From NCBI GenBank assembly GCA_022722495.1, contig JAIJLI010000029.1:1-12018 (forward strand): a DNA stretch of 12,018 nucleotides, in the 5' to 3' direction. The stretch comes from Dialister sp. GTDB taxonomy: Bacteria; Bacillota; Negativicutes; Veillonellales; Dialisteraceae. A program made the position numbers and the translations under genes. The notes below the pieces were generated by a model. That model had not been told where the DNA came from, did not search any database, and was given only the letters and a program-made list of their open reading frames with translations. This document shows, one piece after another, positions 4,837 to 12,018 of the stretch; position 1 is the stretch's first letter, and each line of letters starts with the position of its first letter.

Positions 4837-4974
4837 GGGGAAGCGCCTGTGAAACCAGTTGAGATAATTTGTCAACTTATAGACTTAGTGAGAAGTGAGA
4901 AGTGTTAGAAGGTGCGCACAATTCATATGGCGCCCCAATACCCTGATGCTATGAAGTTAAGAAGATGGTTGAGA

Positions 4975-5190
4975 GGTCCATCGGACCAGTTCCCCCCTCC
5001 GGGGGAAAGGTGGTGCCGAAGGCACCAAAGGGGGTGCATTTCCACGAGCGAAGCGAGGTTTTATGGTTTTCTAAATGATAGCGGTATACCGTAAGCATTT
5101 GGAAAACCATAAAACCGGCCTACGGCCGAGGAAATGCACCCCCTCTGCCTTCGGCATCTCCCCCAGAGGGGGAGATAGCCCGATGGGCCA
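4975..5190. repeat. Palindromic REP/MITE-like element, copy A
   Basis: This 216-bp element is almost wholly self-complementary about a centre at 5086/5087. Arms pair exactly: GGGGGTGCATTTCC (5030-5043) with its complement at 5130-5143, and TTTTATGGTTTTC (5059-5071) with its complement at 5102-5114. The middle is the palindrome CGGTATACCG (5082-5091). Between the arms sit tiny hairpins with three-base loops: GGTCC-ATC-GGACC at the left end, CCCCC-TCC-GGGGG, GGTGCC-GAA-GGCACC, GC-GAA-GC, GCC-TTC-GGC, CTCCCCC-AGA-GGGGGAG and GCCC-GAT-GGGC at the right end. No transposase is encoded in it. The same element occurs at 9298-9512 and 9609-9893. The short open frames across it are by-products of its composition. 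Confidence 0.88.
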
Positions 5191-5207
5191 AACAATGGCA
5201 TGTAAAA

Positions 5208-5272
5208 CCCATCGAGATAATGGTCAGATGGGACGAAGACCATTACCATTTCGAGGGCGATGGCTCGATGGG
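5208..5272. repeat. Extra inverted repeat abutting copy A, possible degenerate element end
   Basis: CCCATCGAG (5208-5216) pairs with CTCGATGGG (5264-5272), and within it AATGGTC pairs with GACCATT. The right part, GGGCGATGGCTCGATGGGCC, resembles the right end of the palindromic repeat (GATGGCCCGATGGGCC), so this may be a decayed or partial copy. Confidence 0.45.
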
Positions 5273-5391
5273 CCTATCACAAGCATACAAGATCCCCTGC
5301 TTATGATGATAAAATGCTGAAACCATCTGCATAAAAAATTAGAGATGATAAAAGAAATATTTCCACAGACAAAATAAATATTAAAAACCAC

Positions 5392-5576: not shown

Positions 5577-5984
5577 ATGAGGAAGATCGTTTTAGCTTGC
5601 CTGTTTCTGCTCGGGCTTTGTTTCCTGCCGTTGGCTCATGCATCGGCGGCGACACAGTCATCGGATACGATGATATTGGAATGGCGAGCAGAGAAGGCGT
5701 GGATCGACAAGGGCGACCTCTGTCTGCGTGGGACATTCACGAATAAGAGAAAGGATCTCAGCATCACGAAGATCGATCAGTTCGTGACAGAGATCACCTT
5801 CACGCGCGCGGATGGCAGCAAGTATCAGTACGTCGCTATGCCGACCAAAATGCCGCTGGTCAAGATTTCAGCCGGTGGCGCACGGACTGTGACTTTCAAT
5901 CTGGGGCATTTTGAAGATACTTGGAAGGATTGGGTCGCAACTGAGGATTATACATTCACCTACATTACAGGAAAACGCTGGTAA
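5577..5984 (+). CDS. Small exported protein of unknown function, first gene of the receptor operon
   Basis: A 135-residue protein with a clear signal peptide: MRK, a hydrophobic stretch IVLACLFLLGLCFLPL, and a cleavage site near AHA-S or ASA-A (residues 22-25). The mature part, about 110 residues, alternates hydrophobic and polar positions (for example GDLCLRGTFTNKRKDLSITK and VTEITFTRADGSKYQYVAM). This suggests a single beta-sandwich domain of the kind seen in periplasmic or surface accessory proteins. I do not recognise a named family. Start ATG 5577 has an excellent ribosome site (AAAGGAGGGAG); an in-frame GTG at 5556 is less likely. Only 18 bases separate its stop from the receptor's signal-peptide ATG, so it is probably co-transcribed with the receptor and may assist it. 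Confidence 0.8.
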   Translation: MRKIVLACLFLLGLCFLPLAHASAATQSSDTMILEWRAEKAWIDKGDLCLRGTFTNKRKDLSITKIDQFVTEITFTRADGSKYQYVAMPTKMPLVKISAGGARTVTFNLGHFEDTWKDWVATEDYTFTYITGKRW

Positions 5985-6002: not shown

Positions 6003-6092
6003 ATGATGAAAAGAAAAGCATTACTTACCTTAATGGCAGCATCGATGTTGACAATCGGGGGGGGGTACTCTGATTCATGCTGCATTCGATGA
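6003..6092 (+). pseudogene. Signal-peptide segment of the TonB-dependent receptor, out of frame with the body (phase-off or frameshift)
   Basis: From ATG 6003 (or 6006), behind GAGGGA, the reading frame encodes MMKRKALLTLMAASMLTIGG, a textbook signal peptide. It then crosses nine G (6057-6065) and meets a TGA at 6090-6092, giving a 29-residue product. Removing one G joins it to the frame of the receptor body as TIGGGTLIHAAFDENLNMYT, with a clean cleavage site after IHA. The full-length protein would then be 846 residues. The body is intact over more than 800 codons, so the gene is not decaying generally; the single-base difference in a homopolymer is either reversible slippage or a sequencing error. 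Confidence 0.85.
6057..6065 (+). repeat. Homopolymeric G9 tract in the receptor coding region
   Basis: Nine consecutive G at the end of the signal-peptide core. Eight G (or 11, or 5) would be in frame; nine is out of frame. Poly-G tracts of this length are known slippage sites that switch outer-membrane receptors on and off, as in the Neisseria haemoglobin receptor genes hmbR and hpuA. Confidence 0.8.
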
Positions 6093-6102
6093 AAATTTAA
6101 AT

Positions 6103-8544
6103 ATGTATACGCTCGATACCGTTGTCGTCGAAGCAGATAAGACAAAGAACAAATTCGGCGATACCATTACCGAGCAGTCGTACTATCGTACCGGCGGTGA
6201 TGTGAAGGTCATCACGAGAGAAGAGATCGAGAAGCGTCACTATACGGATCTGACGGAAGCCATTAAGCGTATCCCAGGGGTTACGTTCCAGAACCCAGGG
6301 TATCGCGGCGGGGAATATGGATACGAATTCTATAATAATGGCGTTTCCATTAACGGGGATACTCGCGTTATTGTTTGTGTCGATGGTCGTCGTGTTGATA
6401 ATGCGGCAAGTACTCGTGTTGGCTCCAAGAGTACAAGTGGTACGAAATCCACAGGGGTGAACCTGAATCAGGTCACCAATATGGAAAATGTCGATAAAAT
6501 TGAAGTCATAAAAGGACCTGGTGCATCCGTATATGGTGCAGATGCTACTGGGGGTGTCATTAACATTATCACTAGAAAAGGTGGTAATGATTCTACCGCT
6601 ACAGTTGATGTGTCTACCGGCTCTTGGCATCAGCACAATTATGCGGTGAGCGTTTCGGGAACAAAGGGCGATGATAAGTCTCTGCACTATTTCATTTCTG
6701 CCAACCGAAACATGTCCGGCGATACCAAGTATACAGACGGAGTAACTGGAGAAACAGGGACCTTGGGTGGCTCTCGCTGGAAAGAGGATGGTGTCAACAT
6801 CCGAATCGATAAAGACTTCGATGCTAATCATTCCTTGAAAATTGCATATAATCACAAAGATGGGAAAGATGGTTATCCGATTGCTACACCAAGCATGAGA
6901 TATTGGAATCAGAATGACTGGAATCGGATCATTTTTAATGCTACGGTAGGTAAGCTTGATCAGAATAATAAACTGATTTGGGAAGGTAATTATAAGCAAA
7001 AAAGTAAATGGGATGAGCCTGGAACAAAATATGAAGACAGTGGTAAGAAAGATGATGATGGGAATACCATTTGGTACACTTTGGATAAAAATGGTAATAA
7101 AATCAAAACCTTTAAAAAATTAAGCGGTGATAAAAAGAATCCAGGTTATCACAACTTATATGCGTTAGATGGAGCTTTGTATAATTCCTTCAGTAAGTTT
7201 AATAACAATGATGTCGATGTAACCTATACCTTCAATAAAGATAATGGGATGGATAGCTTCATTCGTCTATATTCTCAGAAGCATCGTTATATGCAGCGTG
7301 ATAAATATTCTTGGTCTTTCCTCTCGGATCCAAGCAATGCATATAATGACATGTTCCCGACAGGGGCAACTAGCGAGCAGCTGAACAAGTGGATTGCAGA
7401 CAATTTGGCTCCGTTCCCAGGAAGTGGTGATCAGAAAGCTTTTGACCGCTGGCTGGAATTGACAGGTGGTAAAGCTGGTGAGCCAACGAGTTGGCATGAT
7501 GAACAGAATAAGGGTATTCAGTTGCAGCTGGCTAAATCACTTGGTATTCACGACGTGATTGCTAGTGTAACCTATGATAAAGCCCGTAATTATTCCAGAA
7601 GCATTTCGAATGGTGTTGAAAATAGTTCTTATGTCCAGAGAAAGACGTTACAGGCATATGTACAGGACAAAATCCATCTGACAGATAAATGGGATTTTAC
7701 ACCGGCTATTCGTTACGCCAAGTATAGTTCTTTTGAACACTCTACAGGCACGACACAGGGTAAAGGCGATACCCATGATCTGAACTACACCATCAATACG
7801 GAATATATGTTTAATGACTCCACCAGCATGTATGCTGGATGGACGAAGGTATTCCGTCCACTTCGTGAAGGGGATTATTCCACAGTTGACGGCGTATTTA
7901 AAACACCATTGAAAGATGAAGAAGGCAATGCATGGACATTTGGCGTACGTAAAGAGCTCTCTGATAAGACGACGCTGGCTGTTCATTACGATATCACCAA
8001 GATGACGAATGCCATTGCTACCCTTCCGATTTGGGATGAAGCGCAGCAGAAACCGGTAAGTACAGCTGTTAATGCCAAGGAAGATAAGCAGTCGTTCAAT
8101 TTCACGGTAGACCATCAGTTTAACGATCATTTGACATTGTCTGCTTCTTATTCTCATATGAAGGATAAATGGAAAGCCAAATCCGGCTGGATTCTTGATG
8201 ATAGCTGGGGATATGCTAATGAAAGTGATATCAATACTGCCATCAACAGCCTTCGCCCACAGAACCATTATTCACTGAATCTCTCTTATGAAAATGGAAA
8301 ACTGTATACTGGCTTGCTGACAAATTGGTACACTGGCTGCAGTGAACATGCTTTTTCCAATAAACGATTCCTTGTACTGGATTGGAATGTAAACTATCAG
8401 CTGACCAAAAACATGAATGTATACCTCCTGATCAATAACTTGACCAATGAAGGATACGAAACATCATACAACTCTTGGAACGGCATCGGCTCCTCGGCAA
8501 TGCCGGGACGCAGCGTACTGGTCGGCGCAAAGTACACCTTCTAA
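6103..8544 (+). CDS. TonB-dependent outer-membrane receptor (haem, siderophore or cobalamin type), body of a frameshifted gene
   Basis: The 813-residue open frame starts at an internal ATG because the signal peptide is out of frame (see 6003-6092). At its start, TLDTVVVEAD is a likely TonB box. The plug domain covers about residues 20-160, with VKVITREEIEKRHYTDLTEA, RIPGV, VDGRRV, and VDKIEVIKGPGASVYGADAT followed by GGVINIITRKGG, all standard plug signatures. The rest is a long run of amphipathic beta strands forming the 22-strand barrel, ending SVLVGAKYTF with the terminal Phe used for outer-membrane insertion. FRPLREGDY lies where haem receptors often carry a FRAP motif, but the substrate cannot be fixed. 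Energy would come from TonB-ExbBD, not seen here. The binding protein and permease at 10296-12018 are plausible partners. Expressed only from 6103 it would lack an export signal and be non-functional. Confidence 0.9.
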   Translation: MYTLDTVVVEADKTKNKFGDTITEQSYYRTGGDVKVITREEIEKRHYTDLTEAIKRIPGVTFQNPGYRGGEYGYEFYNNGVSINGDTRVIVCVDGRRVDNAASTRVGSKSTSGTKSTGVNLNQVTNMENVDKIEVIKGPGASVYGADATGGVINIITRKGGNDSTATVDVSTGSWHQHNYAVSVSGTKGDDKSLHYFISANRNMSGDTKYTDGVTGETGTLGGSRWKEDGVNIRIDKDFDANHSLKIAYNHKDGKDGYPIATPSMRYWNQNDWNRIIFNATVGKLDQNNKLIWEGNYKQKSKWDEPGTKYEDSGKKDDDGNTIWYTLDKNGNKIKTFKKLSGDKKNPGYHNLYALDGALYNSFSKFNNNDVDVTYTFNKDNGMDSFIRLYSQKHRYMQRDKYSWSFLSDPSNAYNDMFPTGATSEQLNKWIADNLAPFPGSGDQKAFDRWLELTGGKAGEPTSWHDEQNKGIQLQLAKSLGIHDVIASVTYDKARNYSRSISNGVENSSYVQRKTLQAYVQDKIHLTDKWDFTPAIRYAKYSSFEHSTGTTQGKGDTHDLNYTINTEYMFNDSTSMYAGWTKVFRPLREGDYSTVDGVFKTPLKDEEGNAWTFGVRKELSDKTTLAVHYDITKMTNAIATLPIWDEAQQKPVSTAVNAKEDKQSFNFTVDHQFNDHLTLSASYSHMKDKWKAKSGWILDDSWGYANESDINTAINSLRPQNHYSLNLSYENGKLYTGLLTNWYTGCSEHAFSNKRFLVLDWNVNYQLTKNMNVYLLINNLTNEGYETSYNSWNGIGSSAMPGRSVLVGAKYTF

Positions 8545-9273: not shown

Positions 9274-9297
9274 ATATAGCTTTATCAGACAATGATA

Positions 9298-9512
9298 GGT
9301 CCATCGGACCAGTGCCCCCTCCGGGGGAAAGGTGGTGCCGAAGGCACCAAAGGGGGTGCATTTCCACGAGCGAAGCGAGGTTGTATGGTTTTTTAAATGC
9401 CAGCGGTATACCGTAATCATTTAGAAAACCGTAAAACCGGCCTAACGGCCGAGGAAATACACCCCCTCTGCCTTCGGCATCTCCCCCAAAGGGGGCGATG
9501 GTCCGATGGACC
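9298..9512. repeat. Palindromic REP/MITE-like element, copy B
   Basis: Same design as copy A: left end GGTCC-ATC-GGACC (9298-9310), GGTGCC-GAA-GGCACC, the palindrome CGGTATACCG at the centre, and right end GGTCC-GAT-GGACC (9500-9512). Here both ends carry the same GGTCC/GGACC hairpin, whereas copies A and C end with GCCC..GGGC type hairpins. The inner stem is kept by wobble pairs (TTTTTTAAATG with CATTTAGAAAA), which suggests the fold is preserved. The gene-free stretch 9274-9924 is filled by copies B and C and the fragment between them. Confidence 0.87.
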
Positions 9513-9543
9513 GATCAAACGTTTTCTTAAATTCATAGCATTA

Positions 9544-9592
9544 CCCAGAGGGGGAGATGGCCCGATGGGCCAAACAATGTCATGCAATGGCA
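9544..9592. repeat. Isolated right-end fragment of the palindromic element
   Basis: CCCAGAGGGGGAGATGGCCC and the following GATGGGCC, then AACAATGTCATGCAATGG, repeat the right end and right flank of copies A and C without the rest of the element. It looks like the original right end of copy B displaced by about 30 bases of unrelated sequence, or a remnant of another copy. Confidence 0.65.
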
Positions 9593-9608
9593 TTGAATAC
9601 TAATGATA

Positions 9609-9893
9609 GGTCCATCGGACCAGTGCCCCCTCCGGGGGAAAGGCGGTGCCGAAGGCACCAAAGGGGGTGCATTTCCACGGCCGAAGGCCGGTTGTAAGGT
9701 TTTTCGAGCGAAGCGAGGTTTTATGGTTTTCTAAATGATAACGTGATACCGCAGTCATTTAGAAAAGCGTAAAACCGGCCTGACGGCCGAGGGAAAACAA
9801 GCCAACATCGCTGCGCTCGGGAAATACACCCCCTCTTTGGTTCTCCCCCGGAGGGGGAGATGGCCCGAAGGGCCGAACAATGTCATGCAATGG
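9609..9893. repeat. Palindromic REP/MITE-like element, copy C (enlarged), next to the DUF559 gene
   Basis: The left 70 bases match copy B with one difference. This copy carries extra modules on both sides of the centre: GGCC-GAA-GGCC plus a GTTGTAAGG segment on the left (about 9679-9704) and an AAACAAGCC..CGCTGCGCTCG segment on the right. The inner stem TTTTCTAAATGA / TCATTTAGAAAA is perfect although the central palindrome has decayed. The right end is GGCCC-GAA-GGGCC (9862-9874), followed by the shared flank AACAATGTCATGCAATGG. It stops about 30 bases before the DUF559 start. Confidence 0.85.
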
Positions 9894-9924
9894 CGAAGGT
9901 TCTATGATCTGAAAGGAGCACATG

Positions 9925-10299
9925 ATGCAGAAACCACCTTTGAACCGGACGATGAAGGGACGAGCGTCTTCCATGCGTCGTCACATGACGAAGGAGGAGT
10001 TTCATCTTTGGTATCATTTCCTACGCATGTATCCGGTGAAGTTCCGGCGGCAACGGGTGATGGGGGCTTTTATCTGTGATTTCTACTGCCATAGGGCGCG
10101 GCTGATCGTCGAGCTGGATGGGGCACAGCATTACTCTGACTATGGGAAGAGCTATGATGCATGGCGCAGCGAGAAGTTGGAAAAGGATGGATGCAAGGTG
10201 CTTCGGTTTTCGAATGGTGATATACATGAAAGGTTTTATGGCGTATGTGTCCTGATCGACCGCGCTGTGAAGGAACGGATCAAGGAAATGGAAGAATGA
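9925..10299 (+). CDS. DUF559 family endonuclease-like protein (Vsr/restriction-endonuclease fold)
   Basis: This 124-residue protein matches the DUF559 pattern throughout: MTKEEFHLWYHFLR near residue 21, KFRRQRVMGAFICDFYC (39-55), the core LIVELDGAQHY (60-70) with Glu63, Asp65, Gln68 and His69 as likely catalytic or metal residues, and GCKVLRFSNGDI. The family is related to the very-short-patch-repair nuclease fold; its biological role is not established. Start 9925 is six bases from AAAGGAG; ATG 9922 is three bases from it and also possible. It begins about 30 bases after copy C of the palindromic repeat. Its stop overlaps the next ATG (ATGA), so it heads the binding-protein/permease operon. 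The N-terminal half is rich in Arg and Lys, fitting nucleic-acid binding. Confidence 0.88.
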   Translation: MQKPPLNRTMKGRASSMRRHMTKEEFHLWYHFLRMYPVKFRRQRVMGAFICDFYCHRARLIVELDGAQHYSDYGKSYDAWRSEKLEKDGCKVLRFSNGDIHERFYGVCVLIDRAVKERIKEMEE

Positions 10300-11297
10300 A
10301 AAAGATATGGATAGCGGCGGCGCTTCTTTCCTGCTGCCTTCTCTCGGGCTGCAGTCCGATGGTGAAGGAGGGGGCGCCGCGGACGGAATCGGTGGTGGAG
10401 GATTCGGCTCATTACCCTGTCACCGTTGAAACGTTAAACAGTCACGGAGAGATGCGGGAGGAGACGTTCAGGGCGCCGCCGAAACGGGTGGTGTGCATCT
10501 GGCAAAACTCTATCGAAAATCTTCTGGCTCTTGGCGTGGGGGATCGGATCGTGGCAGCGATGGGGCTGCCGGATGGGAGCTATCTGCGCCCGGAGTATCG
10601 CGATACGTATGCGAAGATCCCGTATACGAGTATGGAAAATCTAGATATGGAGACGGTGATGCTGCAGGATCCGGATCTCATCGTGGGCTGGGCATCGTCT
10701 TTCGATAAGAAGACGCTCCGCGGGACGGATTTCTGGGAAGGCCGCGGTGTCGGGACATACATAGCTCCCGGGTCTTCGTCGAAAATCCAAGTACATACGA
10801 TCGACTATGAGTATCAGGATATCTTGAATCTCGGGAAGATTTTTGACCGGGAGGAGAAGGCTCAAGAGCTGGTCTCTAAGATGCAGGATGAGATCGAGCG
10901 TGCGGAAGGAAAGGCGCAAAAAATGGGGCATCATCCGCGGGGGCTTATCATCGAGTATTTGGGGAAGGATATCACGGTCTACGGAGAACGCTCGCTTGCA
11001 GGAAATATCCTTACGTCTATGGGCGGGGAGCTTCTTGGCACGGGTATGCGTACGATCAGCAAGGAGCAGCTGATCGAGATGGATCCCGAGGCGCTTTTCA
11101 TGGTGGTCTGCGAAAATGCGTATGATCAGATGGATCAGATCGTAGAACGGCTGTATCAGGATCAGGCGCTGCAAGGGCTCACCTGTGTGAAGGAGAAGCG
11201 CATTTATCCGCTTCCTCTTTACGCCATCTACAGCGCAGGCGTGCGGACTTATGATGGGATACAGATTATTGGAAAAGGGCTCTACCCGGAGGAATAA
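10296..11297 (+). CDS. ABC transporter substrate-binding lipoprotein (FecB/FhuD/BtuF type; iron complex, haem or cobalamin)
   Basis: A 333-residue lipoprotein: the signal MKKIWIAAALLSCCLLSGC has the lipobox LLSGC with Cys19 as the lipid-modified residue. The body (about residues 60-320) is a type III periplasmic-binding fold, with KRVVCIWQNSIENLLALGVG and DRIVAAMG at the first lobe, MLQDPDLIVGW, a long linker helix near EEKAQELVSKMQDEIERAEG, and MDPEALFMVV in the second lobe. It would capture the ligand in the periplasm and deliver it to the permease that follows. The start is the ATG overlapping the DUF559 stop (ATGA). A longer frame upstream to 10245 is rejected because it lacks a signal peptide and overlaps DUF559. 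The substrate cannot be told from sequence alone. Confidence 0.93.
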   Translation: MKKIWIAAALLSCCLLSGCSPMVKEGAPRTESVVEDSAHYPVTVETLNSHGEMREETFRAPPKRVVCIWQNSIENLLALGVGDRIVAAMGLPDGSYLRPEYRDTYAKIPYTSMENLDMETVMLQDPDLIVGWASSFDKKTLRGTDFWEGRGVGTYIAPGSSSKIQVHTIDYEYQDILNLGKIFDREEKAQELVSKMQDEIERAEGKAQKMGHHPRGLIIEYLGKDITVYGERSLAGNILTSMGGELLGTGMRTISKEQLIEMDPEALFMVVCENAYDQMDQIVERLYQDQALQGLTCVKEKRIYPLPLYAIYSAGVRTYDGIQIIGKGLYPEE

Positions 11298-11300
11298 GAT

Positions 11301-12018
11301 ATGAAGAATGGTTTGAAAGAAATCGGCTTTGCCGCATTCCTGCTGCTCTTGGCCGTGCTTCTGGTGCTCTCGCTTTTCTGGGCGCTCAGCATCGGGACGG
11401 TGAAGCTGCCGGCCGGAGATATTTATGATGCCGTGCTTCACCAGTTCACGAGTGGACTGCCGATCGAGGCGACGGGGCAGGGGCCGGTCCATGACATCGT
11501 ATGGCTTCTTCGCCTGCCGCGGCTCATCCTGGCAGCACTCGTCGGAGCAGGGCTTGCGTCCTGCGGGGTCATCATGCAGGCGATCGTGAAGAATCCTTTG
11601 GCGGATCCGTACATTCTGGGGATCTCTTCGGGTGCGTCACTTGGCGCGACCTCTGCGATCCTTCTGGGAGTCGGGGCAGCGCTGGGACCGAATTTTGTCG
11701 GTATCGCTGCTTTTATCGGAGCTTTTGTGATTTCGCTGGCGGTACTCTTTATTTCTAATCTAGGCGGCCGGTCGAACTCGATGAAGCTGCTTCTGGCAGG
11801 TATGGCACTATCGGCGGTGTGCGGGGCGTTTTCCAGCTTTATCGTGTACTTTGCCAATAATAAGGAGGGGATGCAGACGATCGCGTACTGGATGATGGGA
11901 AGTCTTGCTGGGGCGCAGTGGGGAGAGCTCGCGGTGATCGCGCCGATCATCATGGCTTCGATCCTTTTTTTCTGGACGCAGAGCCGTGTGCTGAATCTGA
12001 TGCTTCTTGGCGATGAGT
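11301..12018 (+). CDS. FecCD/BtuC-type ABC permease, partial (continues beyond the window)
   Basis: From ATG 11301, three bases after the stop of the binding-protein gene and behind CCGGAGG, the frame stays open to the end (239 codons). It has the family's conserved features: a first membrane helix, the LRLPRLILAALVGAGLA segment, NPLADPYILGISSGAS, which marks FecCD permeases, and YWMMGSLAGAQW. About two thirds of a usual 330-350-residue protein is visible. It forms the inner-membrane channel (as a homodimer) for the ligand carried by the upstream lipoprotein. The ATPase gene is expected next. Confidence 0.94.
   Translation, partial: MKNGLKEIGFAAFLLLLAVLLVLSLFWALSIGTVKLPAGDIYDAVLHQFTSGLPIEATGQGPVHDIVWLLRLPRLILAALVGAGLASCGVIMQAIVKNPLADPYILGISSGASLGATSAILLGVGAALGPNFVGIAAFIGAFVISLAVLFISNLGGRSNSMKLLLAGMALSAVCGAFSSFIVYFANNKEGMQTIAYWMMGSLAGAQWGELAVIAPIIMASILFFWTQSRVLNLMLLGDE

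Follow-up and report, generated by a model that had tools for sequence, protein, structure and literature searches.

The window, i.e. the whole 12,018-nucleotide stretch of the Dialister sp. contig that was analysed, carries a gene for a TonB-dependent receptor whose signal peptide and body are in different frames, with a run of nine G at the break (Table 1). The receptor body matched the Pfam families Plug (E-value 1.6e-19) and TonB_dep_Rec_b-barrel (7.9e-21), and the scores of 70.8 bits for PF07715 (cut-off 23.9) and 75.9 bits for PF00593 (cut-off 27) place it among the TonB-dependent receptors. Its likeness to PDB entries, at the level of the plug, was to the ferric enterobactin, colicin I and BtuB receptors. 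In NCBIfam, 25 families matched the body, none of them above its own cut-off, and the best was TIGR01783 with 127.6 of 223.5 bits. An AlphaFold2 model of the receptor, made from 11 sequences, had many long strands with a pLDDT of 51 and a pTM of 0.47, too poor for a fold search.

Table 1. Coordinates of the receptor locus (window positions) and of the giant surface-type proteins found in the survey (locus positions).
Feature	Position	Strand	Remark
Small secreted-type protein	5577..5984	+	Upstream of receptor
Signal-peptide frame	6003..6092	+	ATG 6003 or 6006; 29 codons, then TGA 6090-6092
G9 run, presumed slippage site	6057..6065	+	End of signal-peptide hydrophobic core
TonB-dependent receptor body (plug and barrel)	6103..8544	+	813 aa, other frame than signal peptide
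Periplasmic substrate-binding protein (Peripla_BP_2) of uptake system	10290..11297	+	Pfam
FecCD/BtuC-type permease	11301..12017	+	Cut by window end
Giant surface-type protein with signal-peptide run	L274:183-4325		Frame scan
Giant surface-type protein with signal-peptide run	L275:233-12448		Frame scan
Giant surface-type protein with signal-peptide run	L276:4670-14956	-	Frame scan
Giant surface-type protein with signal-peptide run	L277:205-7923		Frame scan

The small protein encoded upstream had a 43-46% identical counterpart just 5' of the receptor in three related loci (L001, L020 and L027). On the 3' side the receptor gene is followed by a 215-residue ORF without a family, by intergenic repeats, and by the genes of the Peripla_BP_2 binding protein and the FecCD permease. 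Among the 29 related loci, a binding-protein match was found in 28 and a FecCD match in 24, mostly directly after the receptor; in most relatives it is the binding-protein gene that lies directly 3' of the receptor. The predicted gene products make the locus a TonB-ABC uptake system of the iron-chelate/haem/B12 class, and the ligand would probably be an iron chelate, haem or a cobalamin-type compound imported with the downstream SBP-FecCD system.

Dispersed repeats of up to 130 nt, both direct and inverted, flank the receptor gene (4946-5294 and 9288-9894). Elsewhere in the window, an 87-residue protein beside an ABC exporter (82-2065), which we take to resemble PqqD-like RiPP recognition proteins, had no match in Pfam or NCBIfam, and the ORF at 9922-10299 presumably codes for a DUF559-type endonuclease-like protein. 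Scans of the window with Rfam (gathering threshold) and for tRNA were empty.

The start region translated from ATG 6003, MMKRKALLTLMAASMLTI, is a typical signal-peptide start with the nine G directly 3' of it, and a weak Shine-Dalgarno-like stretch is visible by eye 5' of this ATG. In the receptor frame, 825 codons are open downstream of the run; the earliest ATG, GTG or TTG start of this frame is ATG 6103, and the 813-codon body has no internal stop. Apart from the run both frames are intact, and a change in its length would decide whether the body shares the frame of the signal peptide. The initial annotation had described two intact frames broken only at the nine G, as well as a 29-residue product in the current phase; the ORF reading and the frame scan confirmed the first statement, and the length of the frame from ATG 6003 the second.

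The run has a length of exactly nine and is the sole G9 in the window on both strands. By itself it is only mildly unusual, as the shuffle expectation is not negligible: of 200 sequences made by dinucleotide shuffling of the window, 14 had at least one G9 (mean 0.11). A G9 within an ORF is long enough for the threshold of a Neisseria survey, of which it is the lower edge, G/C runs being called phase-variable there at nine or more (PMC5953494).

The closest relative, P0001, which has 94-95% identity over 100% of the body and stands for a cluster of 3173 members, begins MMKRKALLTLMAASMLTIGGGTLIHAAFDENL, with the signal peptide and the body in a single frame. The first 21 residues of the window signal-peptide frame are those of the P0001 N-terminus, and the in-frame junction that had been predicted for the window gene, ...TIGGGTLIHAAFDENL..., turned out to be the real N-terminus of this natural protein. 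P0005 (84%) is in frame as well. The proteins P0002-P0004 (88% to the window receptor and mutually 99.5-99.6% identical) begin MYTLD; MYTL is the start that a gene caller would choose for the body in the window, and the same start is used in these three proteins, where it could have another cause than an out-of-frame run. Given the in-frame P0001 and P0005 and the MYTLD starts of P0002-P0004, all of them predicted proteins, we conclude that the in-frame form exists in nature and that the window contig is probably not alone in carrying the out-of-frame one.

When the body alone was used to scan genome contigs, there were no matches at first, and an alignment scan produced the 29 loci, the best of them at 62%; in viral contigs a scan with the receptor had no matches. 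The best receptor in 380 genomes of the class was 63% identical and the best PanC 88%. Logan proteins reached 99% identity to the window PanC, and among the 120 matches listed the organism names were those of Acidaminococcus sp. (73%) and Megamonas hypermegale (73-74%). Orthologues at E <= 1e-150 amounted to 22 matches in 21 of the 380 genomes, with G8-G10 at the site of the run in six of the 22 loci. The Phascolarctobacterium-like proteins among the relatives were without a Gly stretch, and of the Veillonella loci within the 29 only VA139 (L013) had a run at this receptor.

For comparison of alleles, the window's own lineage offered only the 94% and 88% relatives, as proteins. The post-run part of the S. 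infelix gene L005, used as a query, yielded a near-identical group of proteins, a Selenomonas-type orthologue with a body 78% identical to L005 and 87% to L037. In this group, three Gly and an in-frame body were found in P0244, P0245, P0248, P0250, P0252, P0253 and P0254. The bodies of P0246 and P0247 are identical to that of the in-frame P0248 in 788 of 788 residues, while the two proteins begin MQSSQGSCPRGGG and ...ACSPRRALVHGGG. In its two other frames, the flank upstream of the run, common to L004, L005, L039, L040 and L041, translates to precisely ...QSSQGSCP and ...ACSPRRALVH. P0246, P0247 and P0248 share one body, and each of their N-termini represents a different one of the three frames that cross the run. 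Judging from the proteins and the flank of the other loci, the run would be G11 in P0246 and G9 in P0247 compared to G10 in P0248, and P0251 (99.9% identical, with one extra Gly) would have G13. The protein clusters cover 24 contigs for P0248, four for P0246 (up to 187,919 bases), three for P0251 and two for P0247; P0249, with the same body and a garbled N-terminus fitting no frame, was excluded. At the level of predicted proteins, this orthologue has natural length alleles in near-identical genes, and identical bodies in different phases are the pattern expected of phase variation.

Plug searches in G129, G133, G135, G242, G003 (MAG SUG113) and G355 (Veillonella sp. VA139) gave 99 receptors, and all their 5' ends were scanned. 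We found G7+ runs in 20 of the 99, with 1 to 5 such receptors per genome in all six genomes. By eye, the runs of L179, L192, L218 and L237 lie after the cleavage site. A signal-peptide start was present upstream in 19 cases, with the run in the signal peptide or just after it (L200 has its G7 run without such a start); the body is in frame in 15 of these and out of frame in four, L204, L225, L246 and L267. L246, with G10, is the orthologue of the window gene in G135, while L267 (SUG113; identical with L026, 53%) has G7 and is cut by the contig end. The bodies of all four are open as far as covered, in L267 up to the contig end. Of two G242 paralogues that have one shared signal peptide, L226 is in frame with G8 and L225 out of frame with G10.

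Shuffles of the same 99 5' ends were expected to have 2.7 G7+, 0.8 G8+ and 0.24 G9+ cases, compared to 20, 14 and 8 observed. The counts for C7+, C8+ and C9+ were one each, and A8+ and T8+ had none. The sole C7+ case, L231 of G242, has a C9 just after the signal peptide and is in frame. L201 was kept in the set despite a stop within its plug frame, and L187, L215 and L268 had neither a run nor a clear signal peptide. A Fisher contrast of the four out-of-frame cases among 19 with 0 of 80 was discarded, since the search for out-of-frame signal peptides was confined to sequence 5' of a G or C run. None of 18 Plug receptors had a G7+ run in the five genomes whose PanC is closest to that of the window (81-88%), and the window receptor was not found there at E <= 1e-30; therefore, the run-bearing trait is patchy rather than uniform.

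A second survey started from the runs themselves. The G8 search in six genomes gave 68 distinct runs (18 in G129, 18 in G133, 19 in G135, 11 in G242, none in G369 and 2 in G373), and 63 of them were taken in 60 loci; the five left out were G8 runs of G242, two of which were covered later (L224 and L226). A run was counted if an ATG with the character of a signal-peptide start lay 24-110 nt 5' of it and an ORF of 400 or more codons followed. Such placement in the signal-peptide stretch of a long ORF was observed for 14 of the 63 G8+ runs and for 9 of the 23 that are G9+, compared to 1 of 63 when the same runs were taken as C8+ from the opposite strand (Fisher p 2.4e-4 and 1.5e-5, respectively). 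Random positions gave 301 of 40000, a rate that serves as a local control only, because the loci had been selected for runs. It is this signal-peptide placement of runs in relatives that lifts the window G9 above chance.

In the fetched loci of four genomes, 15 G8+ runs were associated with signal peptides, 11 of them in TonB receptors and four in giant surface-type proteins (Table 1). The latter, from G129 and G135, have signal-peptide runs of G8-G10, by which two of the proteins are in frame and the other two are not; 1381 to 4072 residues follow the run, and the C-termini are similar and end in Phe. No Pfam family was found for any of the four in the first about 830 and last 450 residues. 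Two longer runs, a G13 (G133:C1:1375472-1375484) and a G12 (G242:C1:521454-521465), had no long ORF 3' in the scan and are possibly promoter-type repeats. A class-wide count of the pattern (134 of 380 genomes) was discarded for its many matches outside signal peptides, overlapping counts and many control matches.

We consider it highly likely that the window gene is a poly-G phase-variable receptor caught in the OFF state of a translational switch. Both frames are intact, the frame break is at the run, identical bodies are predicted in different phases, and runs of G are enriched over runs of C. The proposal of a candidate phase-variable TonB receptor, made initially from the window alone, gains from the identical-body orthologues in both phases and from the 5' runs being of G, not C. 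Very probably it would turn the receptor on and off reversibly, in the manner of a known type of switch. When the DNA is replicated, slipped-strand mispairing at the poly-G would alter the length of the run, and the body would thereby gain or lose its common frame with the signal peptide. An in-frame receptor would be exported and take its place in the outer membrane. In the out-of-frame state of the window, translation would stop at the end of the 29-codon frame, or initiation at ATG 6103 might produce a body without an export signal. Since the Gly codons belong to the signal peptide, which is removed by cleavage, length changes that keep the frame (three or four Gly, as in P0248 and P0251) should leave the mature receptor unaltered. 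Slippage as the cause, as well as reversibility, rate, benefit and ligand, are what we infer from these patterns.

Were the gene truly in frame, the break would be a homopolymer artefact of sequencing or assembly. Homopolymers are error-prone, and P0001 is in frame; such an error is nonetheless unlikely, as out-of-frame versions are present in separate public genomes (the four receptors named above) and out-of-frame P0246 comes from a multi-contig cluster. The same type of error could affect these versions too, yet the run and its enrichment would remain. The out-of-frame state of the window copy would also agree with an ordinary pseudogene, i.e. a one-off fixed frameshift with decay to come. 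This we regard as extremely improbable given a stop-free body so close to P0001, a break exactly at a homopolymer that recurs in relatives, and 4 of 19 run-bearing receptors that are likewise out of frame with open bodies.

Slippery runs are in principle capable of transcriptional or ribosomal slippage, by which some in-frame protein would be made and the gene would never be fully off. We find this distinctly unlikely: in-frame alleles predominate among the run-bearing receptors, and data from E. coli and Buchnera speak against slippage in transcription, the homopolymer insertions in transcripts having all been in A or T runs, with none in G/C runs (PMC5574713). The run could, on the other hand, be a by-product of a Gly-Gly-Gly motif of the signal peptide, with no role in switching, and at that place several relatives do encode GG or GGG by a mixture of Gly codons. 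We regard this reading as very improbable, as GGG makes up only 12 of 70 Gly codons in the window body and 58 of 252 in ten window ORFs, the runs of other receptors also occur after the cleavage site, and proteins with identical bodies differ in phase.

Beyond the phase-variable receptor of the window, the surveys tip us slightly towards a genome-wide repertoire of poly-G switches in Selenomonas-type Negativicutes, with the runs coding for part of the signal peptide, or for the first residues of the mature protein, in TonB receptors and giant surface proteins; with the same leaning, the window gene would be one such switch in a lineage whose nearest genomes examined are without the habit. If so, each population would hold many outer-membrane states, a bet against phages, bacteriocins, antibodies and changing nutrients, and nutrient uptake and surface exposure would be stochastic within a clone in diderm Firmicutes common in mouth, gut and rumen. 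Existing read data could tell, niche by niche, which receptors are switched on.

The best-known cases of simple-repeat phase variation are in Proteobacteria and Campylobacterota. Among the papers listed in a literature search, which covered published articles and a minority of those in subscription journals, none was found to describe it for Selenomonas, Veillonella or other Negativicutes, or to describe poly-G switching across many TonB receptors at once. The matching passages of PMC8286834, PMC12940168 and PMC11646960 concern other bacteria or unrelated contexts, and the words Selenomonas, Veillonella, Negativicutes, Firmicutes and TonB are all absent from the review PMC11868660. The device itself is already known, from the poly-G of hmbR and hpuA and the signal-peptide repeats of opa and oipA. 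Two points go beyond the initial annotation, namely that some Negativicutes have many genes of the kind found in the window, and that in opa and oipA a switch by repeats within signal-peptide codons had been described before.

The comparison with Neisseria hmbR and hpuA, drawn already in the initial annotation, is apt: according to the passages of PMC3786947 on these genes, a poly-G within the ORF of an outer-membrane haem/iron receptor system sets the on/off state by its length. The window gene shares with them the poly-G in the ORF of an outer-membrane receptor gene; it differs in that it is from another phylum, has the run in the signal peptide and is a putative switch. In the gut commensal Bifidobacterium breve, intragenic G-tract slippage in a surface gene, that of a sortase-dependent pilus, was measured by deep sequencing (PMC9187656). 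That case is a pilus cluster in a bacterium with no outer membrane and with slippage measured, whereas for the window gene slippage is deduced from the sequence. In Neisseria opa, CTCTT repeats in leader-peptide codons gate the whole protein (PMC3960869, in its account of opa), and in Helicobacter oipA CT repeats in signal-peptide codons do the same (PMC10564699, in its account of oipA). As in the window gene, the repeat is within the part coding for the leader or signal peptide, but in opa and oipA it is a pentamer or dinucleotide repeat in genes of adhesin-type proteins, and in the window gene a poly-G in that of a TonB receptor.
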